DNA of 42,500 bases, taken from a virus. The stretch lies in the IMG/VR virus record IMGVR_UViG_3300046514_000400, positions 1 to 42,500 of that record. One strand, written 5' to 3'. Of the stretch, positions 1 to 41,198 are shown piece after piece (positions within the stretch are counted from its first letter, which is position 1; each line of letters opens with the position of its first letter). The position numbers and the translations under genes are program-made. The notes under the pieces were generated by a model, which did no database searches, was not told where the DNA came from, and saw nothing but the letters and a program-made list of their open reading frames with translations.

Positions 1-272
1 TGCGGATCGCGCGGCCAGGTTACGCCTTTAGAGCTACGATGGATCGGAGTCTCCTTGGGCCAGATGATTTGCACTCTAGTTCGGGAGACCGCGAAGTAGT
101 GCGGATGGCCGCTTAAGCGCATGGCGTTGCGGAGCGAGTAGATTCGTTGGCGGAACTTGACGGCCGAGTTATAGGGCAGGGGCACTTCGAAGCGCGCCTT
201 GGCGCCTTCGGTTAGTGCCGCGATGAGTTCGGGGCCAAAGCTTTCGATTGGTGGGGTTTTAGGTCTGGTCAC
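1..272 (-). CDS. Partial small phage protein, C-terminus cut by window edge
   Basis: An open frame runs from a GTG at 270-272 to the left edge without a stop, giving 90 codons. The start overlaps the end of the DUF7768-like gene by 14 bp, as is usual in this operon. The product is basic and includes an NSAVKFRQRIYSLRNAMR segment followed by HPHYFAVSRTRVQIIW, which looks like a short helix plus strands and resembles small uncharacterised phage proteins that may bind nucleic acid. No catalytic motif is seen. The GTG start is inferred from the overlap; no strong Shine-Dalgarno is visible. Confidence 0.55.
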   Translation of the reverse strand, partial: MTRPKTPPIESFGPELIAALTEGAKARFEVPLPYNSAVKFRQRIYSLRNAMRLSGHPHYFAVSRTRVQIIWPKETPIHRSSKGVTWPRDP

Positions 273-660
273 TAGGTTTCTCCACATGCTGAGCGAAAAG
301 CTGGGCGAGCTTGTCGTCGGGGTTTGAATGGGGAAGTTTCACCGGGCCGTCGAGAGCGCGGAAGACGAAATCGAGGTTGCTTTCGAATAGCATGGCTTGG
401 AGCGCGGAGAGCATTCCAGGGCTCCAGCCGAGGTCGGTATAAAATATGGTTAGCTCCGCCACGTCGCGCCATTCGAGGCCGGCGGTGAGCCCGAGTGCCC
501 TTTCAACTGGCTTCGTGTCGTCTAAAACGGGCGGATAGAGAAGGTGGAAGGCTAGGGGGGCTTCGTCACGGGATAGAGAGTCGCGCAGGGCGCGGCGAGC
601 GTAGGCGCTGTTAAAATGCGGCGCGCTGGCGTAAGGAGATTCGATGATTACGCGCTTCAT
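259..660 (-). CDS. DUF7768-like protein (nucleoside deoxyribosyltransferase-like fold)
   Basis: This 133-residue protein opens with MKRVIIESPYASA and continues with the pattern AYARRALRDSLSRDEAPLAFHLLY, then ERALGLTAGLEWRDVAELTIFYTDLGWSPGM. That order is characteristic of the DUF7768 family, a Rossmann-like fold related to nucleoside 2-deoxyribosyltransferases and widespread in phages. The family is usually a little over 100 residues; here about 30 extra residues follow. The substrate is unknown. The ATG at 658-660 overlaps the upstream stop (ATGA), so translation is probably coupled. The family call comes from recognising the motif pattern; enzymatic activity is not shown. Confidence 0.75.
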   Translation of the reverse strand: MKRVIIESPYASAPHFNSAYARRALRDSLSRDEAPLAFHLLYPPVLDDTKPVERALGLTAGLEWRDVAELTIFYTDLGWSPGMLSALQAMLFESNLDFVFRALDGPVKLPHSNPDDKLAQLFAQHVEKPSDQT

Positions 661-2215: not shown

Positions 2216-2349
2216 GGTTTTGGCTCCCTTTGGGCGCGACGGATTAGCTCCTCTAACAGCAATAGGTCGCGGTTATTGAACCAGATCGAGCCGGCTCGCC
2301 GGAGCGCCTCGATCAGTTCGGGGAGCGGGAGGTCTTTAGCTGTTGTCAT
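2212..2349 (-). CDS. Small hypothetical protein, 45 aa
   Basis: ATG at 2347-2349 to TGA at 2212-2214. The product, starting MTTAKDLPLPELIEALRRAG and then LLLLEELIRRAQREPKP, looks like two amphipathic helices. It overlaps the end of the ParB-fold gene by 14 bp and the start of the tiny membrane gene by 4 bp. No family is recognised; the call rests on the frame and the overlap pattern. Confidence 0.5.
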   Translation of the reverse strand: MTTAKDLPLPELIEALRRAGSIWFNNRDLLLLEELIRRAQREPKP

Positions 2350-2827
2350 TTTTTCTCCAGTGAGGCTTAGGGATAATCGGCTCGGCTTTGAGCCCTGTGG
2401 CGGTGTAGTCGGGAATGCCGGTAACCGTAAAGGGTTGCCATTGATGGAGGTCTAGGAGCCAGGCTAGGATTTCGTGCCGCTTATTCATAGCAGCGGCAAC
2501 GTAGCGATGATGGCCTTCGACGAGTAGGACTTGGGGAATTTCGGGCTCTAATGGCTGGCTATAGGCTTCGGTTTTGCACAAGATTATTGGTTCTTTGAGA
2601 AGCTTAGGGTTCTCAAGGATTTGCCCTACGCGCAGCGGGTGGACTATGTTGTCGGTTATAAAGCTCTTGGCAAGATGAACGTCGATAGGAGCTAATATGG
2701 GTTTATAACGCATACGGAGGCAGTGTTCCCGTAGGCGCGGCGCGTGGATGTGGATATTGCGACCTGTGTTAGAGACAAAGGTGTAGATTTGTTCCCAGGG
2801 ACCTAGAGTCTTGCCGTCGATGGTCAT
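2336..2827 (-). CDS. ParB/sulfiredoxin-fold phage protein
   Basis: Residues of about 100-125 (PQVLLVEGHHRYVAAAMNKR) match the hallmark of ParB-N/sulfiredoxin-like domains, where a strand is followed by [DE]GxHR and a helix. Upstream, DNIVHPLRVGQILENPKLLKEPIILC fits the preceding part of the same fold. No partition helix-turn-helix is present, so this is probably not a segregation protein. In phages such stand-alone domains have been linked to nucleotide binding or nuclease functions, but none is shown here. A second ParB-like domain occurs at 39069-40400. Confidence 0.6.
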   Translation of the reverse strand: MTIDGKTLGPWEQIYTFVSNTGRNIHIHAPRLREHCLRMRYKPILAPIDVHLAKSFITDNIVHPLRVGQILENPKLLKEPIILCKTEAYSQPLEPEIPQVLLVEGHHRYVAAAMNKRHEILAWLLDLHQWQPFTVTGIPDYTATGLKAEPIIPKPHWRKNDNS

Positions 2828-2841
2828 TTGTGTTGGTTTCC

Positions 2842-3120
2842 TTAGAATGAAAGATCGTCTATGGTAGGCTTTCGCGCCGCGGGCGCCGTGTAGTTGCGGC
2901 GCCAGAGCGTGCGGATCGCTTCCATGATTCTAAAACAGTCGCCGCTGATCTCGTTGGCCTTGCCGCGAAGCTCAGCTAGCCGCATCATGAGTTCCTCGGA
3001 TTCTAAACCGGCCGGGGGCGTGGGCTCGTTGCCAAGTTCGTGGATCTTAAAATCTAGCACCAGGAGTGAAGTTTCTAAGAGCTTTTGCTGCTCAGGCGTT
3101 AGGTAGGGAACTATTGACAT
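2842..3120 (-). CDS. Hypothetical helical protein with TIDDLSF C-terminal tail
   Basis: The 92-residue product is largely helical (LTPEQQKLLETSLLVLDFKI and EELMMRLAELRGKANEISGD) and ends in RKPTIDDLSF. The final seven residues are identical to those of the zinc-ribbon protein at 4530-4970, yet the codons differ at several positions. This points to selection on the peptide and not a DNA repeat. The tail resembles the acidic C-terminus of bacterial SSB. No family is recognised for the body. Confidence 0.6.
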   Translation of the reverse strand: MSIVPYLTPEQQKLLETSLLVLDFKIHELGNEPTPPAGLESEELMMRLAELRGKANEISGDCFRIMEAIRTLWRRNYTAPAARKPTIDDLSF

Positions 3121-3132
3121 TGCTTTGTCTCC

Positions 3133-3723
3133 TTAGAACGAAAGGTCGTTAACTGAGGCGAGGTTGGTCTTGCCTTCGATGTTGTAGTACCAGAACTGAT
3201 TCTTTTGCTCTATCAGCGTACCGACGCGCACCTTATCGGTCTTGCCGTCGCGGCGCGTTACGCTTACGAGATCGTGGCGCGAGAGGGATTCGTTGGAACT
3301 GAGAATCCACTGGCTGCTGCGCTTGGAGAAGTTTACGATAGCCGTTTGCACCTTCGGAGGTTGCGGCGGAGGATTAGGATTCGGCGGCGGGTTGTAGGTC
3401 GGGCGCGGTGGAGGATTGGGTGGAGGATTGTAGGTGCGCTGAGTCTGGTATTGCGGTGGCGCGGCCGGGCGCGGCGGCGGCCTCCAGCCGTTTCCGTTGC
3501 CCACGATGGGGTCGGGTATCGGCGAAGCCGGTCCCCCGGCAAAGGGGTCGGCAATGATTGTAACTTTACCACGGAGCAAAGTTTCCCAATCGCCGCCAAC
3601 TTTTTCAACTTGCTGATTCGCCTTACGCATCGCGACTATGGCTTCGCCGTCGTTAGACGAGCTAGTTAGCTTGAGCAGTTTTATTAGCAGCTCAAGGTTT
3701 AGTGCCGTTGGAGTGTTGGACAT
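3133..3723 (-). CDS. DUF2786-like protein with proline-rich linker and NDLSF tail
   Basis: Residues 1-55 include LIKLLKLTSSSNDGEAIVAM followed by RKANQQVEKVGGDWETLLRG, a pattern like the DUF2786 helical domain (NDGEA, then A-N, then W-LL). Residues of about 75-125 are a proline-rich linker with YNPPPNP repeats. The C-terminal part (SRHDLVSVTRRDGKTDKVRV, then FWYYNIEG) is a small beta domain, and the protein ends ASVNDLSF, related to the tails of the proteins at 2842 and 4530. The ATG at 3721-3723 is chosen over upstream codons because those would translate through the hairpin cluster. Confidence 0.6.
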   Translation of the reverse strand: MSNTPTALNLELLIKLLKLTSSSNDGEAIVAMRKANQQVEKVGGDWETLLRGKVTIIADPFAGGPASPIPDPIVGNGNGWRPPPRPAAPPQYQTQRTYNPPPNPPPRPTYNPPPNPNPPPQPPKVQTAIVNFSKRSSQWILSSNESLSRHDLVSVTRRDGKTDKVRVGTLIEQKNQFWYYNIEGKTNLASVNDLSF

Positions 3724-3745
3724 GGAAGGGTTTCCGTTGTGTCCT

Positions 3746-3856
3746 AAGGCCGGGCACTTGCCCGGCCTTGCGCGCTGCCGCCTTGGCGGCCGTTCTAAGT
3801 GCCGTGGCACTTACCAACGCGGCGCCAAGAGCGCCGCGCGGCGTAAGTGTCACTTA
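3746..3856. repeat. Cluster of five perfect inverted repeats
   Basis: Within 111 bp, mostly intergenic, lie five perfect inverted repeats: arms 3746-3755/3760-3769 (AAGGCCGGGC, loop ACTT), 3777-3782/3785-3790 (GCCGCC, loop TT), 3796-3803/3806-3813 (TAAGTGCC, loop GT), 3818-3825/3831-3838 (CGCGGCGC, loop CAAGA) and 3844-3849/3851-3856 (TAAGTG, loop T). The third and fifth share the TAAGTG arm, so they could also pair with each other. No T-tract follows, so this is not a canonical terminator. It lies in the gap between the vWA gene and the DUF2786-like gene. Confidence 0.7.
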
Positions 3857-4506
3857 GCGTCGGGCGCAGCCAGGTAGCCGCCGAATTGCTTCTGTTCGTC
3901 CTCGCTCCAGTTCATTGGCGTTCCGTATAGGCCGTAGTTCTGACGCTTTTTGGCGAGGCTCTTAGCTGCGTCGGTGAGCAGTTTCTTCTGCACGCCAATC
4001 GCGGCGCTCGCGCTGGCTCCCAACAGCTTAGCCATGCGGCTAGTGCTGAAGTCGCATCCGATAAAAGTGATCTGCCAGCCCTTAGCTCTGATCCAATCGA
4101 GAATCATTCGCGCTTGGTCGGCAGTGGTAGTTGAACTGCTGTCGTCGCCGTCCGTTACGATAACAATACTGGCACGCGGCGGGTCTAAGGCGCGCAAGCG
4201 GCGGCCCATGAGATTCACGGCGTCGTAGAGCGGCGTTGTACCTTGGGGGCCGGGCGCGGATTCGATCATTGGAACCCATTGGTCGATCGAGGTGTGGCTG
4301 TGGATGTAGTCTGGGTTAGTGGTGTAAAACATATGCAGGATCACGTCGCTGTTGACGTTCGCGGCGCGCAGCGCCGCGATATAGGCGTCGATTGATCCAA
4401 TGGACTCAAACCACTTGTCGGCCATTGAGCTGGAGCAATCTACCAGAATATAGTCCTGCTGCTTGTCAGACTTAGTAAGCGCGTTGCGTTGGGCTAGCTG
4501 GTTCAT
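3850..4506 (-). CDS. von Willebrand factor A (vWA) domain protein
   Basis: The 218-residue protein has a full MIDAS metal site: D23-x-S25-x-S27 in ILVDCSSSM, Thr90/Thr91 in GTTPLYDAV, and D119 in IVTDGDD. The rest fits the alternating strand-helix order of the vWA fold, with WQITFIGCDFSTSRMAKLLG near residues 145-165. vWA proteins bind a partner through a Mg2+ ion and often work with AAA+ ATPases. No such ATPase is adjacent; the RecA-like ATPase at 41210 belongs to the same strand but is distant here. The SD region is tandemly duplicated. Function in the phage is unknown. Confidence 0.8.
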   Translation of the reverse strand: MNQLAQRNALTKSDKQQDYILVDCSSSMADKWFESIGSIDAYIAALRAANVNSDVILHMFYTTNPDYIHSHTSIDQWVPMIESAPGPQGTTPLYDAVNLMGRRLRALDPPRASIVIVTDGDDSSSTTTADQARMILDWIRAKGWQITFIGCDFSTSRMAKLLGASASAAIGVQKKLLTDAAKSLAKKRQNYGLYGTPMNWSEDEQKQFGGYLAAPDAK

Positions 4507-4510
4507 GGCT

Positions 4511-4532
4511 GTGGTTCCTCAGTGGTTCCTCA
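4511..4532 (-). promoter_or_regulatory. Tandemly duplicated Shine-Dalgarno segment
   Basis: An 11-bp unit (plus strand GTGGTTCCTCA) is repeated perfectly at 4511-4521 and 4522-4532. On the minus strand each copy carries TGAGGAACCAC, so two GAGGAA ribosome-binding sequences precede the vWA ATG at 4506. The distal copy also supplies the TGA stop of the zinc-ribbon gene. Confidence 0.55.
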
Positions 4533-4970
4533 AAAGCTAAGGTCGTCGATTGTGGGAGTCTTTTTTGGCTTTGCGTCGCGGGCGTCCTTGCGCGCCCCGC
4601 CCTTGGCGGCTTTTGTGTCGTCAGTGTGGCTGTTGAGTATGGTGGCGGACTGAACCACCGGGGGCGAGGGCAGATGGTTGAGTTCTACGCGGTCGAAGCA
4701 GTCTTCGCAGAACGGGATAATCACGTCCGGCACTATCGCGGGCTCGATCGGGACGTTCCACTGTATATCCTTTGGCCCACGCACTGGACGCAAGTTGGTG
4801 ACAAACTTGCCACCCATCCGAGACTTGAGATGGGTTTTCGAGTAAACATGACAGTGCGTCTTGCGCTTGTTGCAGTTCGTGCAGCGCGTGGCCTCGAGCT
4901 GGATCACGTAGCTGTGAGGAGCTACGTCGCCCTGTGGAGCTAAACAGATCGGAGTGACGGGGTTATTCAT
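4530..4970 (-). CDS. Zinc-ribbon-like protein with TIDDLSF C-terminal tail
   Basis: The 146-residue product has CTNCNKRKTHCHVYSKTH near residues 31-48 and FCEDCF near residue 93, which gives two CxxC pairs and suggests one bound zinc. Between them is a proline-rich segment (VRGPKDIQWNVPIEPAIVPD). The last third is a charged, disordered-looking linker (KAAKGGARKDARDAKPKK) that ends in PTIDDLSF. The architecture, a folded N-terminus plus flexible linker plus acidic-hydrophobic tip, is like that of SSB. No named family is recognised. Confidence 0.65.
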   Translation of the reverse strand: MNNPVTPICLAPQGDVAPHSYVIQLEATRCTNCNKRKTHCHVYSKTHLKSRMGGKFVTNLRPVRGPKDIQWNVPIEPAIVPDVIIPFCEDCFDRVELNHLPSPPVVQSATILNSHTDDTKAAKGGARKDARDAKPKKTPTIDDLSF

Positions 4971-5172
4971 CTTTTTTCTTGCTCCTAGAGGTTATTGAGT
5001 TGGACTGGGCTTGGCGCAAGCGGGCGCGCCACTTGTGTTGCGGATAGTAGGAGCCGTGGCCGGCTTTGCGTCCGCGGTGCGGCGGCTCGAGCGAATTGGG
5101 ATGAACATCATTGGCGTCGCTGATCTCGCCGAGGATGTCCATTGGACCTTGTCCTGGGATGAGCCTTATCAT
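4963..5172 (-). CDS. Basic hypothetical protein, 69 aa
   Basis: The product is basic and low in hydrophobic residues (PPHRGRKAGHGSYYPQHKWR, ending SRSKKKDE), so it is probably disordered or nucleic-acid binding. It overlaps the zinc-ribbon gene by 8 bp. The ATG at 5170-5172 has AAGGA about twelve bases upstream, a rather long spacing. No family is recognised. Confidence 0.5.
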   Translation of the reverse strand: MIRLIPGQGPMDILGEISDANDVHPNSLEPPHRGRKAGHGSYYPQHKWRARLRQAQSNSITSRSKKKDE

Positions 5173-5234
5173 GGGATAGCTAAGTCCTTATATTGGGCAG
5201 GGAACCGAAGGTTGTCTGGCCCGTTTACCGACTC

Positions 5235-5408
5235 CTAGTCATTCATAGTATTGGGCACGATCCAGACGCATTCGCTCGGATACACGGGTTCGTGAGCCTC
5301 GTGCGCCAGGTAGAAGCAGCGCAGAACCTCGCCAATGCAGCCATGCCTGCCGGCTAACTCACTGTCCTTGCTGACTGTGATCGCTTCGTCAGTCCACCAT
5401 ACGAACAT
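5235..5408 (-). CDS. Small hypothetical protein, first gene of the leftward block
   Basis: ATG at 5406-5408 to TAG at 5235-5237, 57 residues, with GAGGA seven bases upstream of the ATG. The sequence begins MFVWWTDEAITVSKDSELAG and includes GCIGEVLRCFYLAHEAHEPV. It has three cysteines but no clear metal motif. Good SD placement and its position directly downstream of the regulatory hub support it as the leading gene of the left-arm operon. Function unknown. Confidence 0.6.
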   Translation of the reverse strand: MFVWWTDEAITVSKDSELAGRHGCIGEVLRCFYLAHEAHEPVYPSECVWIVPNTMND

Positions 5409-5511
5409 GGTTGTTCCTCGATCCTAGGTCGTGGCGCACGACGAGGCGGCGACCCGTGAGTCGGGGCGCGCCCTAGGGTTGCATGACGTTACCAGGGATG
5501 CAAATCACTTA

Positions 5512-5538
5512 ATGTTACATCTTTGTAACAATTATCAA
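5512..5538 (-). promoter_or_regulatory. Candidate leftward promoter with embedded palindrome
   Basis: On the minus strand TTGATA (5533-5538, five of six matches to the -35 consensus) is followed after 15 bp by TAACAT (5512-5517, four of six matches to -10). The palindrome GTTACA-TCTT-TGTAAC (5514-5529) lies between and overlaps the -10, as an operator would. It stands about 100 bp upstream of the first left-arm gene. The short spacing keeps confidence low. Confidence 0.3.
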
Positions 5539-5685
5539 ATGGTCTAGCCATGTAGAATGTGCGCGAAGCGCACCTGCAGGTTGGGAGGCTCGACCTACAA
5601 CTTAGGCCAATGCGTTTTGTGGTATAAATTAGTTCCCCGATACCTATCGCCAACCTGCTACCGACCCTCGCCCCGACCCTACCAA

Positions 5686-5914
5686 TTACCTCATTATCCC
5701 TGGAAATTGGCTTCTTGGCGACTGACCCCCATCCGCCCCGGCGCGTACCCATCCCGAGGTATGGCCTTGGGGGGACCTCTCTGAGAGAGAGACTTCAGAG
5801 GAGAGCCCCTTCTACGGGGCCAGAGGTCTGGGGGGCTACGGGCCAACATGGGGCAATGTACGGCCGCACGGGTAGCTCCAAGCCAAAAGGCCGAATTGAG
5901 GGATAATGAGGTAA
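5686..5914. repeat. 16-bp perfect inverted repeat pair, about 200 bp apart
   Basis: TTACCTCATTATCCCT at 5686-5701 is the exact reverse complement of AGGGATAATGAGGTAA at 5899-5914. Weaker similarity continues inward (AATT and GG on both sides). Such length is not expected by chance at this spacing, and no transposase or gene lies between the arms. Confidence 0.75.
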
Positions 5915-6033
5915 CCAATAGGGGCCGTATGAAGGTCACCTCGAAGTAAGCGATAGCTATAGCTGAAGGATAATTCTTCGACGTATGTATGATAGCAGAC
6001 GTATGTGTGAGTCTTGCCCTCGCCCCCGGACGC

Positions 6034-6060
6034 AAAAAGCGGGCGCCCGTAGGCGCCCGC
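6034..6060 (-). terminator. Intrinsic terminator of the 216-aa gene
   Basis: On the minus strand GCGGGCGCC (6052-6060), loop TACG, and GGCGCCCGC (6039-6047) form a perfect 9-bp GC-rich stem directly followed by TTTTT (6034-6038). It lies 21 bp after the stop of the gene at 6082-6732, separating that gene from the hub and the left-arm operon. Confidence 0.9.
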
Positions 6061-6081
6061 CGTAGTCGTAACGCCCTGGGA

Positions 6082-6732
6082 TCAGAGCGCCAAGTCGTCA
6101 ACCGTGGCCACGCTGCGGCCGACAAGCGCCGCATAAGCCGTAGTCACCGCAGGCATATTCCGCGCCGTCCGCAGGAAGGCCGGATCATCTTCCAGCTTCT
6201 GCCGAACTTTCGCCTTATAGCCGGCGGCGACGAATTCGTCAGTAATCAACTCGCCAGCCTTAGTCTTGCCGCCCTGCGCCACTTGGACTTGGCAAATGGC
6301 CTCCGCCAGAGCATCCTTGTCGACTTTCGCGCCGCCCTCCCGCGTGCGATCGACCCATGTCCCGGTTGCCAGAGTCGCAAACCGCTCACGTACCGACTGG
6401 ATCTGCTCATCCGGGCTCGCCGCACCCTTGGCCGAATTGCGAGCCTGCGAAGTCTCGTTAGTCGCCAAAGTCTTGGCCCCGAACACGGCCAACATGCGAT
6501 CCGCATCCGCGTTCTGGCCAAACAGGTAGTCGAAAGTCTGTTGATTCGCCAACAGCGTATAGCGCATCCCGTGGGCGTCTTCCTCCTTCTCAACAATATC
6601 GCCGTTGGTGCCGATCAACTCATGATTCGCGACGGCTTTCACCTTCTTCGCGGCGGGAGTCGTGGTAACATCGGAACTAAGCGGCGCGAGAGCGGGCTCG
6701 CTTGCGGGAGTAGTAGTCGGGCGCTTTGCCAT
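6082..6732 (-). CDS. Conserved-looking phage protein, monocistronic, VDDLAL tail
   Basis: This 216-residue protein has a disordered Thr/Pro/Ala-rich N-terminus (residues 1-35), then HGMRYTLLANQQTFDYLFGQ, then a helical C-terminal domain with TGTWVDRTREGGAKVDKDAL and LEDDPAFLRTARNMPAVTTA. It ends ATVDDLAL, related to the IDDLSF tails of the left-arm proteins. The ATG at 6730-6732 has GAGGAA at good spacing. The gene has its own strong terminator and lies alone in the divergent control region, which would suit a regulator or an abundant early protein. The family cannot be named. Confidence 0.65.
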   Translation of the reverse strand: MAKRPTTTPASEPALAPLSSDVTTTPAAKKVKAVANHELIGTNGDIVEKEEDAHGMRYTLLANQQTFDYLFGQNADADRMLAVFGAKTLATNETSQARNSAKGAASPDEQIQSVRERFATLATGTWVDRTREGGAKVDKDALAEAICQVQVAQGGKTKAGELITDEFVAAGYKAKVRQKLEDDPAFLRTARNMPAVTTAYAALVGRSVATVDDLAL

Positions 6733-8204: not shown

Positions 8205-9731
8205 ATGGCAGACACTATAACCGTCGATCGGGATGAGCTGATAAAGCTCTGCGCTATAGATTCTGAGCTCTACGCTCGCACGTTTTTCACCAAGACCTTT
8301 CGCCAGGTTTCCCCTAGTTTTGCTAAGCTGATCTGGGCGCCACTAGAAGATCCCAAGGCCCGACTAGTTAATCTGATCTGCTTCCGCGGCAGTAGCAAAA
8401 CCACGCGCCTGCGGACGTTTGCATCTAAGAGAATCGCCTACGGCATATCACGGACTATTCTCTACGTCGGCGCGAGCGAAGCGAGCGCGATCGCTAGTGT
8501 TCAGTGGTTGAGAACCCAGGTAGAACGGAACGCGCTCTGGGCACAGACCTTTGGTCTCGAGCGCGGACGAAAGTGGGAAGAAACGCTCTGCGAAATCCAG
8601 CACAAGACTTTTAACCATAGCATCTGGATCACCGCCGCCGGGATCAACGGAAGCCTGCGCGGAATTAACTTCGACGATTATAGACCAGACTTAATCATAG
8701 TCGACGATCCGCAGACAGACGAGACGGCGTCTACGCAGATCCAGCGGGAGAAGGTTGGCGATCTACTACTGAGCGCCGTGCGCAATTCGCTAGCTAGTAT
8801 AGTGGAGGAGCCGAATGCAAAAATGGCGATGGCCATTACTCCGCAGCACAAAGAAGACGTTAGCCAAAAAGCCCTCGTGGATAGCGAGTGGACCTCGGTC
8901 GTTGTTCCGTGCTGGACCAGAGCTACCCTCGATCTCCCCGTGGACCACCAGCTTAGCTCCTGGCCCGAGATGTTTCCCACGGATCAGCTTCGGAGCGAGA
9001 AGCGCGCCGCTTTGCAAAGGAATAAACTTTCCCTATTTACTCGCGAGCGAGAATGCAGACTCACGTCTCTCGAAAGCGCACAATTTAAACCGCAGTGGCT
9101 CAATATCCGGGAAGCCGGCATACCGGCCCCCAAAGGTCTCTTTAGCGTCCTCGCCATCGACCCCGTGCCGCCGCCGTCTCCGGCTCAAATGGCCAGGGGT
9201 CTCCAGGGCAAAGACTTCGAAGCCCATTACGTATGGGGGCGCCAACACTCTGGTCCTGGTGACGTTGCTTACCATCTTCTGGATTTCGCTCGCAATCGCG
9301 GCCATGAACCGAGTTGGACCGTAGCTACGGCGTTTAGCCTAGCTCGAATCCATCGCGTGGCGAGAATCATAGTCGACGCCGTGGCCTACCAGCGCACGTT
9401 GAAGTGGATTTTGGAACAGGAGATGAAGAAGCGGGGAATATATTACCAAGTTATACCTATAGCCGATGGGATGAAGAAGTTCGCCCGAATCTCTAACGTG
9501 ATGAGCGGATTAGCGTCTAATGGCCAGCTTTGGATCGGCAGCGAGCATAGTATTTTTGCCCAACAGTTTGAAGAATTTGGCCCAACGTACACGGGCCACG
9601 ACGACGATCTCGACGCTAGCGCACTTGCGCTGCAAGACATATCTAATCCCTATCTCGAACGGCTTAGCGAAAGTGGCGACGATCTGCTAGACGATGTGGC
9701 CGAGCTTTCTATGATAAGGGCTTGTCCATAA
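8205..9731 (+). CDS. terL: Terminase large subunit
   Basis: The 508-residue protein is the packaging motor ATPase and nuclease. The Walker A-like loop is FRGSSKTT (residues 60-67), Walker B is LIIVDDP (163-169) with two aspartates, and the nuclease domain begins at VLAIDPV with D319. A later HDDDLDAS segment supplies further acidic residues for the metal site. Length and order match phage large terminases. The P-loop has Ser-Ser-Lys in place of the more common Gly-Lys, as in other terminases with deviant Walker A. It would dock on the portal at 10198. Confidence 0.92.
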   Translation: MADTITVDRDELIKLCAIDSELYARTFFTKTFRQVSPSFAKLIWAPLEDPKARLVNLICFRGSSKTTRLRTFASKRIAYGISRTILYVGASEASAIASVQWLRTQVERNALWAQTFGLERGRKWEETLCEIQHKTFNHSIWITAAGINGSLRGINFDDYRPDLIIVDDPQTDETASTQIQREKVGDLLLSAVRNSLASIVEEPNAKMAMAITPQHKEDVSQKALVDSEWTSVVVPCWTRATLDLPVDHQLSSWPEMFPTDQLRSEKRAALQRNKLSLFTRERECRLTSLESAQFKPQWLNIREAGIPAPKGLFSVLAIDPVPPPSPAQMARGLQGKDFEAHYVWGRQHSGPGDVAYHLLDFARNRGHEPSWTVATAFSLARIHRVARIIVDAVAYQRTLKWILEQEMKKRGIYYQVIPIADGMKKFARISNVMSGLASNGQLWIGSEHSIFAQQFEEFGPTYTGHDDDLDASALALQDISNPYLERLSESGDDLLDDVAELSMIRACP

Positions 9732-10197: not shown

Positions 10198-12180
10198 ATG
10201 CCCACGTTACAGGTTCCCAAAGACGGGCCGCTGCACGCCAAGCTCTGCAAGCGCATTGAAAGCCGAATGCGAATGGCGGAGCAAGAGCACGCGAAGCGTC
10301 ATGATAAGTGGCTTGAAGCAGAGGAGAGGTGTCTTGCGTATTTACCAGCAACGGAAGAAGACGCAGCACGCAAGAACAAGAGACGCGCTGGCGAGCCGCG
10401 CTATACGACAATCCAAGTCCCATATAGCTACGGCGTTCTCATGTCTGCGCATACCTACTGGACTAGTGTATTTTTTGCTCGCAACCCCATACACCAATTC
10501 CAAGGTCGCCACGGCGAAGGTGAAATGCAAGTCCAGGCGATGGAAGCCTTGATTGGTTATCAGGTTGACGTGGGAATGTTTACGGCACCTTACTATCTCT
10601 GGCTCTACGACGCAGGCAAATATGGCATTGGAGTCGTGGGACAGTATTGGGATAAGCAGAAGCTCCATGTCGGCCAGCTTGTGGAAATGCCGGATCCAGT
10701 AGATCCGAGTAAGCCTCCAACGCTATACCAAACAACGCAGGAGATTACTGGCTACGTGGGGAATCGGGTTTATAACGTAAGTCCTTGGGACTTTTATCCT
10801 GACCCAAGGCGGCCGGTGAAGGACTTCCAACGCGGCGAGTTCGCCGGCGTGCGCGTTAGGAGTAGCTGGAATGAAATTATTCGGCGGCAAGACGGCGGCT
10901 TTTATAACGATAATACTAAGCTGTTGAAGGAACATATTTCGACGGATAAAACCATTAATCTGGCGTCGCAGCAGCTAGTCCGGCCGTGGTTCTCGCGAAG
11001 TCTCTATGAAGACACGACGGAGGAGTCAAAGCATCCCGCCGGGGCGGTGTTGTTTGAGTTCTACGTTGAGCTTATTCCAAGCGAATGGGGCGTGGGCACT
11101 ACGACGTTCCCGCAGAAGTGGGTTTTTACTATAACCGAAGACTATGGCTTAATTATCGGCGCGCAGCCGCTGGGCATGGTCCATTGTCAGTTTCCCTTTG
11201 ACGTTTTGGAATGCGACATCGAGGGCTACGGGATCTATACGCGCGGGATTCCGGAAATCATGGAACCTATTCAGAATACCGTCGATTGGCTGGTCAATAC
11301 GCACTTCTTCAACGTCCGCGCGGCGCTGAACAACCAGTTTATCGTAGACCCATCCAAGCTCGTGGTCAAGGACGTACAGAACTCGGGCCCAGGCTTCATC
11401 TGGCGCCTCCGCCCCGAAGCCTATGGCACAGACATCACTAAGATCTTCTACCAAGTGCCGGTGGGCGATGTGACGCGGAATCATATGAGTGATTTCCAGC
11501 AGATGTTCGGGATCGGCGAGCGGATTAGCGGTATCAACGATCAGATCATGGGCGCGATCAACACGGGCGCGGCGCGGAAGACGGCTACGGAGATTAGAAC
11601 TACAACTGGCTTTGGCGTTAATAGACAAAAGACTATAACCGAATACATGAGCGCGGCGGGGTTTAGCTCACATGCCCAAAAGCTCGTGCAGTCGAGCCAA
11701 CAGATGTACGATGCGAAGCAAAAGATGCGGCGCGTGGGAAGCTTCGCTCTCGATGCTGGTCAAGCGTTTATCCAAGTCAATCCTGAAGATATTGCTGGTC
11801 AGTTTGATTTTGTTCCTGTTGATGGTACTTTACCTATAGACCGAATGGCCCAGGCTAATTTGTGGAAGGAACTGTTGGGCGGCGTCCGAATGATGCCGCC
11901 CCAGATTGCCCAAGGCTTCGATTGGATGCGGATCTTCGCTTGGGCTGCACAGTTGGCCGGGCTTAAGAATATTAATCAGTTCAAGGTTCAAATGGTTCCG
12001 GACGGACAGCTTGGTGCCCAAGCTCAAGCTGGGAACGTGATTCCCATGCGGCCGCCGGGAATGGGTGCGCCTCCCGGCCTTCCTCCTCCCGGCGGTTCTC
12101 CTGTGGAGCCCGGTAATAGTGCGTCAACGGCGGCGGGTCTTAATGCGCTTGGAGGTGAGGGTGGCGGAATATCAGGATAG
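10198..12180 (+). CDS. Portal protein
   Basis: 660 residues. The N-terminal helical region (KLCKRIESRMRMAEQEHAKR) is followed by RYTTIQVPYSYGVLMSAHTY and FFARNPIHQFQGRHGEGE, a pattern typical of portal proteins of short-tailed phages. The middle has EPIQNTVDWLVNTHFFNVRA and the helical region at about 440-530 (FQQMFGIGERISGINDQIMG, then ARKTATEIRTTTGFG) matches stem and crown helices. The C-terminus is Pro/Gly-rich. It forms the dodecameric ring at the head vertex. GAGGG precedes the ATG. Confidence 0.85.
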   Translation: MPTLQVPKDGPLHAKLCKRIESRMRMAEQEHAKRHDKWLEAEERCLAYLPATEEDAARKNKRRAGEPRYTTIQVPYSYGVLMSAHTYWTSVFFARNPIHQFQGRHGEGEMQVQAMEALIGYQVDVGMFTAPYYLWLYDAGKYGIGVVGQYWDKQKLHVGQLVEMPDPVDPSKPPTLYQTTQEITGYVGNRVYNVSPWDFYPDPRRPVKDFQRGEFAGVRVRSSWNEIIRRQDGGFYNDNTKLLKEHISTDKTINLASQQLVRPWFSRSLYEDTTEESKHPAGAVLFEFYVELIPSEWGVGTTTFPQKWVFTITEDYGLIIGAQPLGMVHCQFPFDVLECDIEGYGIYTRGIPEIMEPIQNTVDWLVNTHFFNVRAALNNQFIVDPSKLVVKDVQNSGPGFIWRLRPEAYGTDITKIFYQVPVGDVTRNHMSDFQQMFGIGERISGINDQIMGAINTGAARKTATEIRTTTGFGVNRQKTITEYMSAAGFSSHAQKLVQSSQQMYDAKQKMRRVGSFALDAGQAFIQVNPEDIAGQFDFVPVDGTLPIDRMAQANLWKELLGGVRMMPPQIAQGFDWMRIFAWAAQLAGLKNINQFKVQMVPDGQLGAQAQAGNVIPMRPPGMGAPPGLPPPGGSPVEPGNSASTAAGLNALGGEGGGISG

Positions 12181-26337: not shown

Positions 26338-27078
26338 GTGGCTGACCAGAGTCCTTACGATCCACAGCAGAGTCCTGATCCGAACCTGCCGCCGCCTGAT
26401 CCGGGAATAGTGAGCCAGATTCAAAGCGCGCTGGGAGATCCGCGCTCGCAGGCGGCGCTGTTGACGTTCGGGCTCAACTTAATGCAACCGCCGAGTTTTG
26501 GCGATAACGCTACGTCACAGATTGGCCGAGCTATTGGCTCTGCGGGCGAGTCGGGGCGGAGTCTAGATACCCAGGAGCAAAAGCAACTGGAGTCGGAGAG
26601 TAAAGCTGATCTGCGGAGCACGCAGTCGGATTTGGCGGCGGCGAAAGCCGCCACGGCGGGAGTGCAAAGCAGCGCCGCGGCGGATAGGTTGCAATATTTG
26701 CGCGATAAGATGTCCCAAGACGCGGCGGCGAAGGAGCTTCAGCAGAGGGTTGTCGCGTCGGGCCAATATCAGGCTTATCTAACGGCGCTCAATAATCAGA
26801 ACTTAAAAGCGCAAAACGAGCACGCTAAGCGAAAGTTCTTAGAGCCTGATTTGCCGGACTTTACTCCGCAACAGCCGATTGATTTTCAGACCTATGTAGC
26901 CACACACGGGTTAACGGGAGGTAGTTTGCTCGGAGGAAATACTGCGGCTCCAGCAGTTAAGCCGGTTACTCCGCCGCCAAACCTTCCACCGCCTGCGGAT
27001 AGGCCGGACGGGCTCGCGGCGCCCAATAATCAGCCATTCCACTGGAGTAAGTCTGCGAACGGGTGGGTGCATAACTAA
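26338..27078 (+). CDS. Helical virion protein, probable ejection component
   Basis: 246 residues from GTG 26338 with GGGAGA upstream. After a Pro/Gln-rich start, residues 75-160 form a long polar helix (DTQEQKQLESESKADLRSTQ, SDLAAAKAATAGVQSSAAAD, KELQQRVVASGQYQAYLTAL) likely to be coiled-coil. The C-terminus is proline-rich, ending WSKSANGWVHN. The stop TAA overlaps the ATG of the giant gene, so the two are translationally coupled and may be partners. Confidence 0.6.
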   Translation: MADQSPYDPQQSPDPNLPPPDPGIVSQIQSALGDPRSQAALLTFGLNLMQPPSFGDNATSQIGRAIGSAGESGRSLDTQEQKQLESESKADLRSTQSDLAAAKAATAGVQSSAAADRLQYLRDKMSQDAAAKELQQRVVASGQYQAYLTALNNQNLKAQNEHAKRKFLEPDLPDFTPQQPIDFQTYVATHGLTGGSLLGGNTAAPAVKPVTPPPNLPPPADRPDGLAAPNNQPFHWSKSANGWVHN

Positions 27079-30000
27079 TGCCAGGATCAGTATTGACTGA
27101 CGAGGAGTTATTCAATCAGCCGGCTGGCGGCGGGTATAGCGGCGTGACTACGCCAGCGCCACAGGCTCAAGGTATTTCAGACGAGCAACTGTTTAGCTTA
27201 CCACCGTCGGGACCAGAGCCACAGTTACCTACGGCGGATCAAGCGCCGCCGGCGGCGCAGGCTCCAGTAGCGAAAGCAGCGCCGTCTGGTTTAGAAACGG
27301 CTTTTAGGTATCCATGGGAGGGCGGGAAGAACGTAGTTCAGGGCGGGTCTACGTTGATGACTTCTGCTGCTCAGGGTATGAGCACGCTGGGTCGGTTATT
27401 TGATAAGAAGCAACTGGACTTTATGGACAAAGTGGATAGGGGAGATATTCAGGCTCCTTATAAGCTGACCCTGGACCAGCTTCGGCATGGAGAGAATATG
27501 CTCTCCATTGATCCTTATAATTATTTAGAAATGAGTCCGGACGAGCGAAAAGCATTCCGGGCGACGAGTCAGGCGGAAATGGAGCTTCCGGCTCCTATGC
27601 GACCGCTGTATAGGGCTGGGACTCTGGGTCAGAAGTGGATTGATGACAAATTCCAGAACGCGCCCGGTTGGGAGAAAGGCTTTTACCACGACCTAACAGC
27701 GGGTGCTGGGTCTATGGCCGCCGGGCTGGGTCTGGGAATGATTCCCGGCGTGGGTCCTGCGCTCGCCGGCACGACGTTCGTGGCGAGTGACGTTGGGCAA
27801 CAGTACGAAGATGCAATTAAGCATGGAGCTACAGAGGACCAAGCTCTGCGAGCGGCGAGCTTGGGAACTGTTCCCGGCGCGACGAATATGGCGGATTTGC
27901 TGTTGCCCAAATTGGGCACGCCGGGTAAGGTTTTAAGTCTAATCAAGCGCGTCGGGTTGCGGGCGGTAGAAGGGGCGTTTGTAGAGGGCGGGCAAGAAGG
28001 TCTGGAGCAGTTTTTACAGAACGTAATTGCGAAAAAGATTTATGATCCGAATCGTGCGGCAACAGAGGACGTTGGCTATAACGCGCTGCTTGGCTTTTTG
28101 CTGGGTGGGGGAACGAGCGCAGCTCTGGGCGGCCACGGCGAGGGTCATGCGCCTACGCAAGCGGATGTGGGAGTCCAGCCGGTTAATCCGGCTACGGTCC
28201 CTCAAGTCTCGCCGATTGCTAATGAGAATATTCAACCGTGGCTGCGTGGGGCGCCGGGCGAGCAGGGACCGCCATTGCTGCCGCCGGAAGGTCCTGGGCC
28301 TTCAGGCCCGTTAGGTCCCGAGCCGCCGCCGGCGATGCCGCCTCCCGCTGCGGAGTTACCGCCGGGATTCCAGCAACCGGCGAACACGAATGAGCCGATG
28401 CCGCTTCCGAATAATCCGGCGGCGCCGCAGGAGTTGCCTGCGGACGTTAGTCAACAGATGGAACATGACGAGTTATTTAGCGACGTTCCGGCGACACCGG
28501 CGGGGCCTCCCGGCGCTCCGCAGGAGGGACAGGGGCTTCCGCCGACCGATATTAGCGCGGCGATGCGGACACATATTCCGTCGCATCTGTCTACAACTAC
28601 CGAGGCGGCGCCTGTTGAGCGTCCGGTTAATCCACAAACGGGCGCGCCGGATGCGGTCCAGCCGACAGCGCCGCTGGTGGTGCCTCCGTATCCAAACGCG
28701 CCGCCGAGTGATATAGCTCTAGCGTCTGTGCCGGATTCGGCGTTTAGAGCCGATCAAGCTACTGAGTTGCACAATGCTTTTACCGCGCAGCCGTATATAG
28801 ATAGTGTGCCTTTGGCAAATATGGGCTTTGGTCCGATCCAGATCGACGCGCTGCAAACTGCGGGATTGGCAACTAATGGAGTTATGAGCAGCAACCAATA
28901 TAGTACGTGGGTGAATGAGAGAGCGGATAGATTCGCGCGGGCGCGGGCGCAAGGAACTACCGTTAGCGACGACATATTGGGCCTTGGGCCGTCGCCGAAT
29001 ATTATAATCAAGCCGCGAACAGTTCCTGTGGTTCCTGGGCCGAATGTTCCTATGGGCATTCCGGCGGAAGCTAACGTAGTCGATCCGCGCATTGGGGCCT
29101 TCTTGGCCCAGAATACCAAAGCTATCGACGCACAGACTATTGAGCAGATGCAAGAGCTTGATAGAGCCCAATCTGCGGCAGTTAAGAACGAAACTAATCC
29201 AACACCTACGTCGATTAAAGAGGAATTCGACGCGATCGCTACTAATCCTGATATGAATAAGCAAGATATTGCACAGCAATTGGGAGCGAAGCTCTACGGG
29301 GGCTCGATTGATAAGGTTTCGGTTAAGGAGATGTTTCAAAACGCATTCGACACGGTTAAAGCTGTGTTGGAGGATAAGAAAGTTGGGCTGGGCACTATCG
29401 ACGTGGTGATGGACCCGAAGTCGCGAACTATTAGTGTGAAGGATAACGGCGAAGGGATGCCGCCGAGTGTTATGGGAAACCAGTTCTTGTCCATCGGCGG
29501 CACGATGAAGCGTGGGACGCGCCCGAGCGGTGGATTGGGAATTGCAAAGCTAGCTGTGCTTTATTCGGCCACCAATGTCCACGCCACAAGTATGCGCGAT
29601 GGGATGATTTATGAGCTGAATACTACGGGGCCGCAACTCTACGAGGCGCAGGAGAATAAGAAAGTTGCGCCAAAGATTCTACCCCGCCGGCCGACGCCAA
29701 AAGACTTAGCCATGTTCCCCGACGGGCACGGTACGCTCGTTCAGGTCACGCTGCCGGAAGTCTATCAAGATCCTGAGACTTTTGAGAACAAAGAAGTGGC
29801 CTTCGATCACTTTCAGCATAGTCATCCAGTGTTGAATAATAGTCCGCTGTTCGACAATATTCGTGTAACCTTTAACGGAACGCCAATTATCGGAATGGGC
29901 CAATCGTTCCCGGCGGCGCAGTTTGGCCGGATGCCAACGGTTAAATTCGCCCATAGCGATGCGAAGCTTTATGTTAGCAAAGCGGAGCTTCCGTATGCGC

Positions 30001-33000
30001 CGGATAAGAATCTCCATGTGCTAAGTAATGGGCTTTGGCAGTTTAGTCTAAAGGTCTCGGCTGACCCTACTAAGTATTGGGCCGATAGCGTACCGCGGAC
30101 ATTCTATGTCGATATAGCGAGCAACGTAAGTCCGAAGCACGCGGGGTATCCGTTTGAGTTGAATAGACAGGGATTCTCGAATGCGGTCAGGCCGGGGTTT
30201 TCTAGCCTGATCCAGTATTTGGGTCTGCAATATCAGCAGATGGAATTGGAGAAGGATGCGCAAACCTTTGGCACTCTGCAATATTACGAAATGGGACCGG
30301 ACGGCAAGGCTGTAGTGTTGCCGAAGCAGGAAATTAAGCCCACGGCGCCGCCGCCGAAGACGGCACTTAGCGTTATTAAGCCGGGAGACCAGGTTACGGT
30401 TAAAGAAGACGGCACGATTGTGGTGAATGGTAAAGTTCTGCCGCCGATGACGCCGGAGCAGATGAAAGCGTTTAAGATCAATCCTGCTGTGTTGAGGGTT
30501 CCGCAGAGCGAAATTCGAACCGACGCTACTTTGGTCCACGATAACCATACTATTTCGGATTCTAAGTTGCGGACGCTGAGCTTTTCGGATTGGTCGCGAG
30601 AGAAGTTTGGGGCGCGTTACGATCAGTTTATTGGGGAATTAGGCGAAGCCTTTCGAGAGCTTCGCGATACGGTGGCGAGCGTAGTCGAGGCCGGCGATAA
30701 GAGCGGTGCGTTTACGGACACGGGGCCAAAGCGATGGGATTATAACACTATCCGCGGAATCGGTGTGGGCGTTAGCTTTGATCCGGCGTATCGTGGAGTC
30801 TCGATAACCGTGCCGTTTGAAGCGGCGTTCGTCAATCCGTTTGTTACGGAGTACACTGATCCGGGCCGCGCTGCTGTAGGTCTCATTGGCACCATGGTCC
30901 ACGAGCTAGCGCACCATAAAGAGCGGAATCACGATGCCGAGTTCCCAGCCGAAATGCAACGGCTGTTAGCAAATCTGGATGTCAATGCGAAAGGATTCAA
31001 CTTCAATGAGTTCAAACACAAAGTTGCCCGCATCTACGTTGCGCACCACGATGTCTTCACGGGGCTCCGGGCAGACTTCCTCGGAGGCACCTTCGATATT
31101 AAGTCTGTTGGGAACCGCTTCAAAGACACTGGCCTCGGACAAGACCTCAATGGACGCTCTTTTATCGGCGTGGACGCGTTTGGGTCAGGAACATCAAGAG
31201 ATGCCGGCCTACGTGAATGGGTTAGTAAGGGCGAGGCGATACCTGCGAGAGTCCCGGGACTTACCCAGTCTAATGCAGAAGTTAGCGAAAGACCCGCTTA
31301 CGTCGACTCCGTTAGATCGACTAACGAGTCCGCAAGCGCCTTTGCAGCCGCTGGGAGCCCTGGAGTCCTCGCCGTCCCCCAGCAGCCCGAGACTAGCGGA
31401 ATTAGGAAAGTCCTTCCCAGGGTCCTTGGGCCAGGGGGCTATAGCGCCGGCGTTGGGGTCGCAGCCGCTGGAGGAGGGGGAGCCAACGTCGGTGGGCCAA
31501 CAGTCGGCGGACCTGGCGGGGGAGGGCCAGGGCCAGTAGGTCCGCAGTTGAGGGCTATGGCTGGTCACGCTGATAGGATGAATAGGTGGTATAAGTACAT
31601 GGCCGGCATTAGTCAGCTGGTTAAGTCGAATATGGGTTTTGCGCCGCTATTGAGGTATTACTACAACGTCCGGGAGTCGCACGGCGAGGAAGCTAAGATC
31701 CACGACGCGGCGGTTCGGCTGTTAAAGGATTGGAGGCGTTTGGGATATAAACCGGGAACTCCAGGAGACAAACTTACGCAGTATATCGACGATATAGCCA
31801 ATATGCGTTATCGGAGTCAGCAGGAAGTTAGTCGGGGAATCCAGCGGCAGCCGACGGCGCAGGAGGAAGCTCAACTGAAAGCTAAGTATGGGCTTAGTCC
31901 GGAAGCGGACGCTATGTATACCCGGATTAAAAATATGTTCGATCGCTTTCTCGCCGTGGTGCATAGGAATGCTCTTGAGCAAGCGCAGCGGAATATTAAA
32001 GATCCACAGCAGTTGGTCAATCGGCTGAATGCGATTAATACACAGTTTGCGGAATATAAGAATACTCCGTATTTTCCATTCGTGAACTTTGGCCACCACT
32101 TTGTGCGGGTTACGGATTCTAAGGGCGCGGTTGTGCATTTTGAAACGTTCGAGAACCGAGGAATATTGGGCCGGCTTGGGTCTAAAAGCGCGGTTAGTCA
32201 ACAGAGTAGAAGGTTTAAAGAGCTGTCGCAACAGTATCCGCCGGGGAGTGGGTATAGTGTAAGGTATTCTACGCTCCCCGAGGCGGCGAGACCTATGGTA
32301 GGAATGCCGAATGTGTTGTTGGCGGATATTAAGGCCGATCCGAATGTTGCACTAACTCCACAGCAGCAGCAGGCTTTGGACGAGTTGCTCTATAACCGCC
32401 AAGCGCAGGGCAGTTTCGGGGCGCGGTTCCGAACGAAGCAGTATACGCCCGGATATTCGATGGATTTCCAGCGGGCCTTTGCGAAGTATTTTTTCCATGG
32501 AGCTAAGTTCTATACGCGACAGAAGTATGGCTGGCGTATGGCCGAGGCGATTGCGGAGGCGCGAACCTATCAGGGCAACAAGGCGGCGGCGATTGCGGAC
32601 TATATGCAAGACCATATGAGTAATACGGTTCTGGATTACACTGGGGACTTTGGTTGGGCTAAGGGCGCGATATTTATGTATGCGCTGGGCTATGTTCCCG
32701 CCGCGGCGGCACAGAATCTGACGCAGACTCCGATGATTACGTTCCCGTTTCTGGGCGCCAAGTTCGGAGATTTCTCCGCTAGTAAGGCGCTTAGCAAAGC
32801 TATGACTAATGTGAAGAATTATTACAAAAAAGGAACCTATGACAATCTAACAGATTTCGAAGCGCGAGCTATGAGCTATGGAATTAAGAATGGCTATATT
32901 TCGGAGACTCAGGCTCCGGCGATTGCGGGATTGAGTCAGGGTAATAACTTGATCGATGGGATTGGCGGTAATCAGCTTCAGCGCGGTTGGACGCATTTTA

Positions 33001-36919: not shown

Positions 36920-37277
36920 TGAGTTCTTCCACGGTCATCTGGGTTAGCGGGAGGAGAGCTATATAGGCAATGAGTTCTTCGTGGCGAACGTAATAAGTCT
37001 CGTGACTGCCGTTGTAGAGGGGAATTATGATTTCTCCAGGCAGGATAAAAGGTTCGGGAATAAAGAGACTGTGTTTTAGAATGTCTGTGTGAGTGATGGC
37101 GTAAAGAGTGTGGTTTGTGGGCAACTGGACGTTGAGCCCCGTGGCGAGCAAGCGGGTGGTTCGCGGGGGAATTAGGCATGTGTTACTTCGCCCTGTATTG
37201 CTAATGAGATAGGCGTGAAGTAGAAAGTTAGTTGGAACGATGGCGTCGGTGTGGAGTTTGCTAAAGGTTACCTTCAT
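36870..37277 (-). CDS. dUTPase-like protein between polymerase halves
   Basis: 135 residues. The order KLHTDAIVPTNFLLHAYLIS, IPPRTTRLLATGLNVQLPTN, LKHSLFIPEPFILPGEIIIP and ELIAYIALLPL follows the trimeric dUTPase fold. The catalytic loop (usually G-x-I-D-x-x-Y-x-G) is replaced by a segment without Asp or Tyr, and the C-terminal P-loop-like motif is missing, so it may bind but not cleave dUTP. The ATG at 37275-37277 overlaps the preceding TGA and has GAGG six bases upstream; a GTG one codon earlier is less likely. Confidence 0.65.
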   Translation of the reverse strand: MKVTFSKLHTDAIVPTNFLLHAYLISNTGRSNTCLIPPRTTRLLATGLNVQLPTNHTLYAITHTDILKHSLFIPEPFILPGEIIIPLYNGSHETYYVRHEELIAYIALLPLTQMTVEELNGNQDSATKRPQALHN

Positions 37278-40400: not shown

Positions 40401-40422
40401 TGGTAGTGTTCCTGTGATGTGG

Positions 40423-40468
40423 GGGGTGAACGGCCCCAAGGCCGGGGACCCGAGCAGCCGTCCACCCC
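40423..40468. repeat. Long hairpin in the methyltransferase leader
   Basis: GGGGTGAACGGC (40423-40434) and GCCGTCCACCCC (40457-40468) pair in 11 of 12 positions, with a GC-rich loop that can fold further (CGGCC/GGCCG). It fills most of the 73-bp gap upstream of the methyltransferase ATG. No T-tract follows, so a translational or attenuation role is more likely than termination. Confidence 0.6.
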
Positions 40469-40473
40469 TACAA

Positions 40474-40704
40474 TCAGAACTTGTTTGCGATCCTACTGAG
40501 ATTGCGCTCAAGTTCCAATAGCAACCGGCCGATGCGGTCGGAACGCTCTAGGTAGCCTGTAACTCTAGGCGCTTCCCCTTCGTCGGATATGGTGACGAAG
40601 GAGTTTTGGCTAACGGAAGATTCAAGCTTGCCCAAGCGTTGGCCTAACTCGGCAATGCCTTTTGCCAGTTCGACGTCGGGATAGACAGGTTCGCGCTTGC
40701 TCAT
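40474..40704 (-). CDS. Hypothetical helical protein, 76 aa
   Basis: The ATG at 40702-40704 overlaps the stop of the upstream gene (ATGA), which fixes the start; in-frame codons further upstream lie within that gene. The product is helical (VELAKGIAELGQRLGKLESS, then SDRIGRLLLELERNLSRIAN) and may form a short coiled coil. It ends ANKF. No family is recognised. Its place beside the possible ssDNA-binding protein suggests a replication accessory role. Confidence 0.6.
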   Translation of the reverse strand: MSKREPVYPDVELAKGIAELGQRLGKLESSVSQNSFVTISDEGEAPRVTGYLERSDRIGRLLLELERNLSRIANKF

Positions 40705-41198
40705 GACAGCCGCACCACGCGGGTCACCTCGGCGCGCTTGCCCTTGGTGCCGTCTTTGCGGTCGAAGTTGATATGTTCGACCTTGACCATAACGGGTCCG
40801 GCGCCCTTGAGGTTGCCGATTGACCATGGACCAGGGTTATTCTGACCCACGGCGCTGCGGACTTGGCCCAAGGCGATGTTTTTATTGGTGCCAAAGTCCA
40901 GGCGCCCCACCGCGTCTACGTCGAGGATAAGCTGTTTAGTGACCACGACTTTTTCCCGGTTGAGTTCAGCTTTCGCCTTCTCGTCCTGGATAACGAAGGG
41001 GATTGTCAGCTTCTTCATCGAGCCCTGCTCGCCGGCCTTTGGCCCGCGCTTGTATTCGAACTCGAAGTTCTCCACAGCGTCGCTGCCGAAGTCGTCGATC
41101 ATCGCCGGGTACTCGCCGGCGGGACAGAGCTTGAATTCTGTCTCCAGCGGCTGGTCAACGGTCTCGTTTAAGAAGTCGTCGGCATTGAAGTCAGACAT
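40701..41198 (-). CDS. Possible ssDNA-binding (DUF669-like) replication protein
   Basis: 165 residues. The N-terminus MSDFNADDFLNETVDQPLET and KLCPAGEYPAMIDDFGSD, then strands with LTIPFVIQDEKAKAELNREK and GQVRSAVGQNNPGPWSIG, resemble DUF669-type phage proteins thought to bind single-stranded DNA. It directly follows the RecA-like ATPase, a pairing common for recombination modules. The end (GKRAEVTRVVRLS) is a strand, with no acidic SSB tail. Assigned from pattern and context; binding is not proven. Confidence 0.5.
   Translation of the reverse strand: MSDFNADDFLNETVDQPLETEFKLCPAGEYPAMIDDFGSDAVENFEFEYKRGPKAGEQGSMKKLTIPFVIQDEKAKAELNREKVVVTKQLILDVDAVGRLDFGTNKNIALGQVRSAVGQNNPGPWSIGNLKGAGPVMVKVEHINFDRKDGTKGKRAEVTRVVRLS

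Follow-up and report, generated by a model that had tools for sequence, protein, structure and literature searches.

Unrelated small proteins of one phage share a C-terminal tail whose spelling changes in concert between related phages: a VWA-domain protein as candidate receptor

In phage T4, gp43, gp55 and gp33 have very similar, interchangeable C-termini that combine hydrophobic and acidic residues and bind the clamp gp45 (PMC2988020), which is also bound by T4 DNA ligase (PMC7892883); this similarity of the tails is not retained in all relatives (PMC2988020, PMC7892883). Here we describe shared tails on four small proteins encoded by IMG/VR virus record IMGVR_UViG_3300046514_000400, a linear 42.5-kb virus contig analysed in its entirety (positions 1 to 42,500, hereafter the window), and on their orthologues in related phages. 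The clamp-binding tails of T4 are the closest precedent, in that similar C-termini are found there, as here, on unrelated proteins of one phage. Unlike in T4, however, the polymerase of the window is untagged (the last residues of its two pieces are GEMEKAS for 36128-36919 and TKGEEDE for 37277-39127), searches for a clamp gene found none, the carriers are small proteins without known function, the tag occurs on more families, and the dialect, that is the tail spelling proper to each phage, changes in concert over 17 genomes. By analogy, the present system would work like the T4 tails, yet it is not a member of that group.

Two bacterial systems offer further comparisons. The C-terminal tip of bacterial SSB, MDFDDDIPF (PMC7913777), is likewise an acidic-hydrophobic C-terminal peptide, and the window version ends in DDLSF; in SSB, however, a single protein presents the tip to its many binders, whereas the tail described here is borne by many proteins, has no Pro-Phe and lies at a varying distance from the C-terminus. 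The beta-clamp-binding motif QLxLF is a short linear motif shared by many partners and often C-terminal (PMC11139829), whereas the 61 tails analysed here lack Gln and lack an L-F pair in the required register. Among the open-licence papers searched, we found no description of a phage-specific C-terminal tag that drifts in concert.

The balance of the sequence evidence leans towards the explanation that the tails are one docking tag for a hub, probably phage-encoded and co-evolving with its tags, for which an untagged VWA-domain protein is the best candidate. The finding is larger than an earlier note on this DNA could see from the window alone.

Four tails and their dialects

The four tagged genes of the window are the following.

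2842..3120, minus strand: tagged protein 1, helical, 92 amino acids, family A; tail PTIDDLSF at 2845-2868
3133..3723, minus strand: tagged protein 2, DUF2786-like N-terminal domain followed by a proline-rich linker; tail ASVNDLSF at 3136-3159
4530..4970, minus strand: tagged protein 3, zinc ribbon with four invariant Cys; tail PTIDDLSF at 4533-4556
6082..6732, minus strand: tagged protein 4, the 6082 family; tail ATVDDLAL at 6085-6108

The earlier note had reported the ends PTIDDLSF (2842), VNDLSF (3133), PTIDDLSF (4530) and VDDLAL (6082) on these leftward open reading frames (ORFs); all were confirmed, and such ends are limited to these four among the window ORFs of at least 30 amino acids. 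The start of the 3133 gene is most likely the ATG at 3723, giving 196 amino acids, rather than an upstream GTG. TVDDLAL is the weakest of the four tails taken alone; its orthologues show, however, that the 6082 family truly carries a tail. Within the window, the C-terminal 6-mers of non-homologous proteins form three pairs with a BLOSUM62 score of at least 22, against 0.1 from internal 6-mers. In IMG/VR outside the window, the exact pattern PTIDDLSF followed by a stop gave a single antisense chance match and nothing more, as the relatives spell their tails differently.

The relatives were collected with a portal profile, which led to 80 related IMG/VR contigs, about 45 of them read whole or nearly whole, and by profile searches with the VWA and DUF2786-like proteins, which added nine independent records. 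In 17 related phages the orthologues retain a tail with the pattern [ST]-[LIV]-[DE]-x-L followed by 0-5 residues (more in one). The spelling is particular to each phage and common to its tagged proteins, and three to seven unrelated small proteins per phage bear it. Specifically, the dialects read as follows; G012, G019 and L246 are further dialect phages.

Window: PTIDDLSF, PTIDDLSF, VNDLSF, VDDLAL
G004: LDDLNSIF, LDDLCNMF, IDDLEGMF, VDDLADMF, VDDLAAMLG
G007: SIDDLLF, TIDDLLF, SIDDLLL, SIDDLLG, TIDDLI
G011: IGDLA, VSDLA, VTDLA
G015: PTLDQL (twice), PTLDTL, PTLDVL, PGLDKL, PSLNDL
G018: LEDLI (twice), LEELI, LEALI
G021: PTPDEL, PTPDQL, PTAEDL
G046: PSLNDI, PSLDEI, PKLEDI, PTLDSI
G047: ATIDDL, ATVDDL, AKIEDL
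G048: IDDLA, IDSLA, LDALA
G049: TIDDLLA (twice), TTDDLLA
G050: TLEDLGLG (twice), TLADLGLD, SLEDLGLE
L252: IEDL, LEDL, TEDL, ASDL, LGEL, ISDL
L256: TADLMKDIDF, TDDLMKGLDL, TDDLMAAIT

The earlier note had taken conserved bodies with unconserved ends in related phages as the outcome that would speak against its proposal. The tail sequence does differ from one phage to the next, yet tails of the same type are retained, and within any one phage they match each other. We measured this matching on the last six residues of four families picked by their bodies only (DUF2786-like, zinc ribbon, 6082 and a family R) in 15 genomes. The 66 within-genome pairs have a mean identity of 2.94 out of 6, against 1.14 after permutation (standard deviation 0.14; z=12.6, p=5e-5), and orthologous tails from different genomes match at just 0.86-1.42 positions of 6. 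An earlier run on three families agreed with this, and in held-out genomes, found via the DUF2786 protein, the values were 2.67 within genomes and 1.54 permuted (p=0.0015). In addition, the genomes encoding the VWA protein hold 20 non-homologous pairs of C-terminal 6-mers at the score threshold used above, against 1.0 expected from internal 6-mers. The records lacking it hold 7 against 1.5, three of these seven coming from G016, a contig that belongs to the phage of G015 and stops short of the VWA gene.

The shared residues are written with different codons, as the earlier note had stated: CCT ACC ATA GAC GAT CTT TCA TTC in one copy of PTIDDLSF and CCC ACA ATC GAC GAC CTT AGC TTT in the other. 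Across the genomes, the same codon stands at 172 of 382 identical residues (45%), against 127 (33%) expected from codon usage. The codons are mostly not copied, and therefore selection acts on the peptide, with at most little DNA copying, which bears out what had been proposed from the window. The concerted, genome-specific variation of the tails strongly supports the further proposal that the tails direct several proteins to a common receptor; that the tags of one phage share a receptor is, on these sequences, very likely.

Sixty of the tails have a recognisable core, in which T or S precedes the core in 48, L, I or V follows in 52, D or E in 50 and Leu in 56, before 0-5 further residues. T or S ahead of acidic residues typically caps the N-terminus of a helix, and the motif is probably an N-capped mini-helix. 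The AlphaFold2 model of the 6082 protein places the tail past a loop and beyond the body, as a short helix of its own (211-215). The core Leu lies at varying distances from the C-terminus, and therefore the free carboxylate is not the common anchor.

Two of the receptors that the earlier note had suggested do not fit these ends. None of the 61 tails ends in PF, 10 end in F and one has at least three acidic residues among its last six; with the terminal Phe or Pro-Phe unconserved, few tails strongly acidic and the distance from Leu to the C-terminus variable, mimicry of host SSB and the SSB interactome as target were set aside. The canonical clamp motif (Q-aliphatic-x-[LM]-[FL] or its hexapeptide form) is absent from all 61 tails and was set aside as well; the nine tagged records searched contain no Pfam SSB and no sliding clamp (PF02768 or PF09116), though a very divergent clamp may escape such a search. 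As a separate observation, true SSB-like tips, unlike the dialect tags, occur in relatives: NDDDEIPF and LNDEIPF, in G044 (L187-L189, an 87-amino-acid ORF) and in L207:15641-16891.

The bodies that carry the tails recur in the relatives, and nearly all members keep a tail. Family A is found elsewhere in G004 (L096:9577-9885, ending in ATIDDLEGMF) and G047 (L232:8534-8896, ending in AKIEDL), with a weak link to the window protein at 2842 (E 0.009). The DUF2786 match of the protein at 3133-3723 lies under the Pfam gathering cut-off (E 0.011; 16.1 bits against 23.9). Its orthologues occur in 12 other records and keep the tail in 11. This family is the clearest example of tail retention: the N-terminal domain and the tail are constant, in contrast to the linker and an optional zinc ribbon, which are present in some orthologues and absent from others. 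The 6082 body is the most widespread (29 of 49 records searched), and its fold gave no structural match. Family R (73-89 amino acids), which was not found within the window, is tagged in 11 genomes with the VWA protein. Further carriers are a family of about 90 amino acids in G021 and G046, single members of the FGPEL and ribbon-helix-helix-like families, and several orphans.

The FGPEL family bears the tag in G015 and perhaps in G049. Deoxynucleoside monophosphate (dNMP) kinases are tagged in G015 (L105:690-1337, PTLDTL; PHROG 139, E 2.5e-27) and L252 (L252:13633-14232, PATEDL), and may tie the tagged complex to nucleotide supply. Most FGPEL proteins, the ribbon-helix-helix proteins and the kinase homologue of L246 are orthologues without a tag; therefore the tag is portable. 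Apart from the sub-threshold DUF2786 and the G015 kinase, the tagged bodies have no family names in Pfam, PHROGs, NCBIfam or PADLOC. Named phages held no relatives of the tagged proteins tried, nor of the VWA protein, and a search for close relatives with the zinc protein as query gave no matches.

A VWA-domain protein as candidate receptor

The candidate hub and an alternative to it are encoded at these positions.

3850..4506, minus strand: untagged VWA-domain protein; metal-ion-dependent adhesion site (MIDAS) with D23-x-S25-x-S27 at 4426-4440, T91 at 4234-4236 and D119 at 4150-4152
40701..41198, minus strand: small untagged protein adjoining the Sak4 gene, possibly SSB-like (unproven), with no family match and ending without a tail

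The VWA gene sits between the tagged genes and directly beside them, a link to the tails that the earlier note had missed. Its product was modelled by AlphaFold2 with a predicted local distance difference test (pLDDT) score of 84.9 and matched VWA and integrin I domains in Foldseek with probability 1.00. The MIDAS (DxSxS...T...D) is invariant in 16 of 16 VWA proteins; in other VWA proteins it binds an acidic residue of the ligand. A C-terminal FGGxL is present in the 14 tag-associated VWA proteins and absent from two remote tagless ones.

The linkage of the VWA gene to the tags was observed directly in the relatives. VWA is the sole untagged family that matches the tags in distribution, being present in 7/7 long and 7/7 partial tagged records and in 0/13 long relatives classed as VWA-less, and it was adjacent in 4/4 new records found via the DUF2786 protein. 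In this clade, every tagged phage has it next to the tagged genes. A pattern scan of GTDB genomes detected no VWA relative. With respect to fold, an analogy is Ku80, whose vWA-like domain reads short Ku-binding motifs on several otherwise unrelated partners (PMC4831024), so that this fold is able to act as a hub of that type; structure 6tyx, used for this comparison, is among the Foldseek matches. The likeness, a VWA fold as hub for short motifs, is an analogy only, since Ku80 is eukaryotic and, unlike here, its motif is a basic patch with an aromatic residue, bound in a hydrophobic pocket rather than at a MIDAS.

Of the three kinds of receptor suggested in the earlier note, a phage hub protein fits best. 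From the sequences compared, a phage-encoded receptor appears fairly likely. That the VWA protein is itself this receptor is a tentative proposal, possible rather than probable.

Several observations weigh against the VWA reading. Tail-like ends occur in relatives without VWA: DDDLNSLLG and GLDGLLG in G022, KLEDLF, KLEELF and IKDLF shared by unrelated small proteins of G024 and G030 (L142, L157), and DLDDLLG and DLDDLM shared likewise in G033 (L161). The correlation of dialect with gene distance does not discriminate between candidates (Mantel, nine common genomes: r 0.37 for the 40701 protein, 0.28 for VWA, 0.14-0.20 for others). The co-occurrence comes largely from one clade, so that shared descent inflates the linkage of VWA and tags, and the choice of the VWA-positive set is circular, being defined by VWA itself. 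In addition, the Asp position is not strict (VNDLSF, IGDLA, VSDLA), and L247 has VWA, yet its DUF2786 protein is tailless.

Alternative receptors and explanations

The shared acidic ends of the VWA-less relatives are perhaps an older form of the same system, and a more general phage receptor is therefore possible. The same tag logic would then apply, with a phage protein older than VWA as receptor (40701, Sak4 or the split polymerase) and VWA just a member of the complex, which we consider unlikely. The 40701 protein occurs in 29 records, VWA-negative ones among them, and has the highest Mantel r, though not significantly so; the 6082 family keeps acidic-hydrophobic ends in VWA-less relatives, and a tagged nucleotide kinase in two phages suits a replication hub. 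However, these candidates all lie outside the tagged operon and differ from the tags in distribution, and the remote G050 keeps VWA and a dialect with no detectable 40701 protein, in a record that may be partial.

More unlikely still is a hub of the host (the beta sliding clamp, the SSB-binding pocket or RNA polymerase), with dialects mirroring different hosts. In VWA-less relatives, zinc-ribbon proteins have canonical or near-canonical beta-clamp motifs at their C-termini in place of the dialect tag: L187:17359-18045, L168:3508-3996, L002:2327-2962, L151:18311-18775 and L183:12356-12841, with the ends QLELF, QLKLFN, QLSLEV, QYELPL and QRSLFS. These ends, and the superficial likeness of DDLSF to DDIPF, would suit a host target, but those proteins are only remote matches to the window zinc protein, and the tails themselves show neither signature. 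In addition, such host pockets are highly conserved and should fix the tails, not allow them to drift in concert.

Short portable C-terminal signals exist, such as cargo-loading peptides and degrons, and the tags could be signals for virion packaging or protease turnover; this is highly unlikely, as the tagged genes lie on the leftward early and replication side and never among capsid genes, and host proteases are constant from phage to phage. A cause at the DNA level, either copying of 3' gene ends or a DNA element in common, with no selection on the peptide, is scarcely credible, since the slight excess of identical codons (strongest in G012, 9/9) is set against different codons for most shared residues and against dialects that outlast diverged bodies and linkers while the tail remains C-terminal.

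Genomic setting, proposed mechanism and significance

In the window, the rightward strand holds the structural genes (terminase 8205-9731, portal 10198-12180), and the leftward genes include a split uracil-DNA glycosylase-exonuclease-polymerase A, a primase/helicase, a ParB-methyltransferase and a Sak4-like ATPase; the stretch from 2.3 to 6.7 kb contains the small leftward genes described here. Two further leftward features adjoin the subject.

2336..2827, minus strand: untagged operon neighbour with a weak ParB-like match, adjoining the VWA module in three relatives too
1..287, minus strand: start of the FGPEL family gene, cut by the edge of the record, so that its tail end, if any, is outside

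In G007, family R lies just beyond the FGPEL gene, and by this gene order a fifth carrier may lie outside the left edge of the record.

Elsewhere, the family A polymerase is split in two ORFs (36128-39127), the first fused to a uracil-DNA glycosylase domain, and a 136-amino-acid ORF between the halves (36870-37280) is frequent among tagged phages and missing from 13 long relatives without VWA. At 39069-40511 a ParB-like N-terminal domain is fused to an N6/N4 DNA methyltransferase, an arrangement kept in most relatives; a 2437-amino-acid ORF (27078-34391) that closes the structural module is kept in nearly all.

Under the favoured explanation of a docking tag read by a phage hub, each tagged protein would have a body of its own, joined through a flexible linker to a short motif at the C-terminus, and all tags of one phage would dock at the same site on one shared receptor. 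Dissimilar small proteins (DUF2786-like, zinc ribbon, helical and some dNMP kinases) would thus be gathered into one complex. As the receptor site drifts between phages, all tags of a phage would shift together into a private dialect. With VWA as receptor, the MIDAS metal could take the Asp or Glu of the tag and a neighbouring pocket the Leu.

Most small early phage genes are without known function, and a private tag spelling would mark those proteins that work together: the tag would predict partners, and the hub could be fished with the peptide. The concerted drift of one short motif over several non-homologous genes is, in addition, a clean natural case of hub-ligand co-evolution. The fullest form of the proposal, which we put forward as rather doubtful, is an early protein network wired via a private address tag, with a phage VWA/MIDAS hub as reader, in which new proteins, enzymes included, would join by gaining the tag, and hub and tags would co-evolve into phage-specific dialects. 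If this is true, dialects could keep the networks of co-infecting phages apart.

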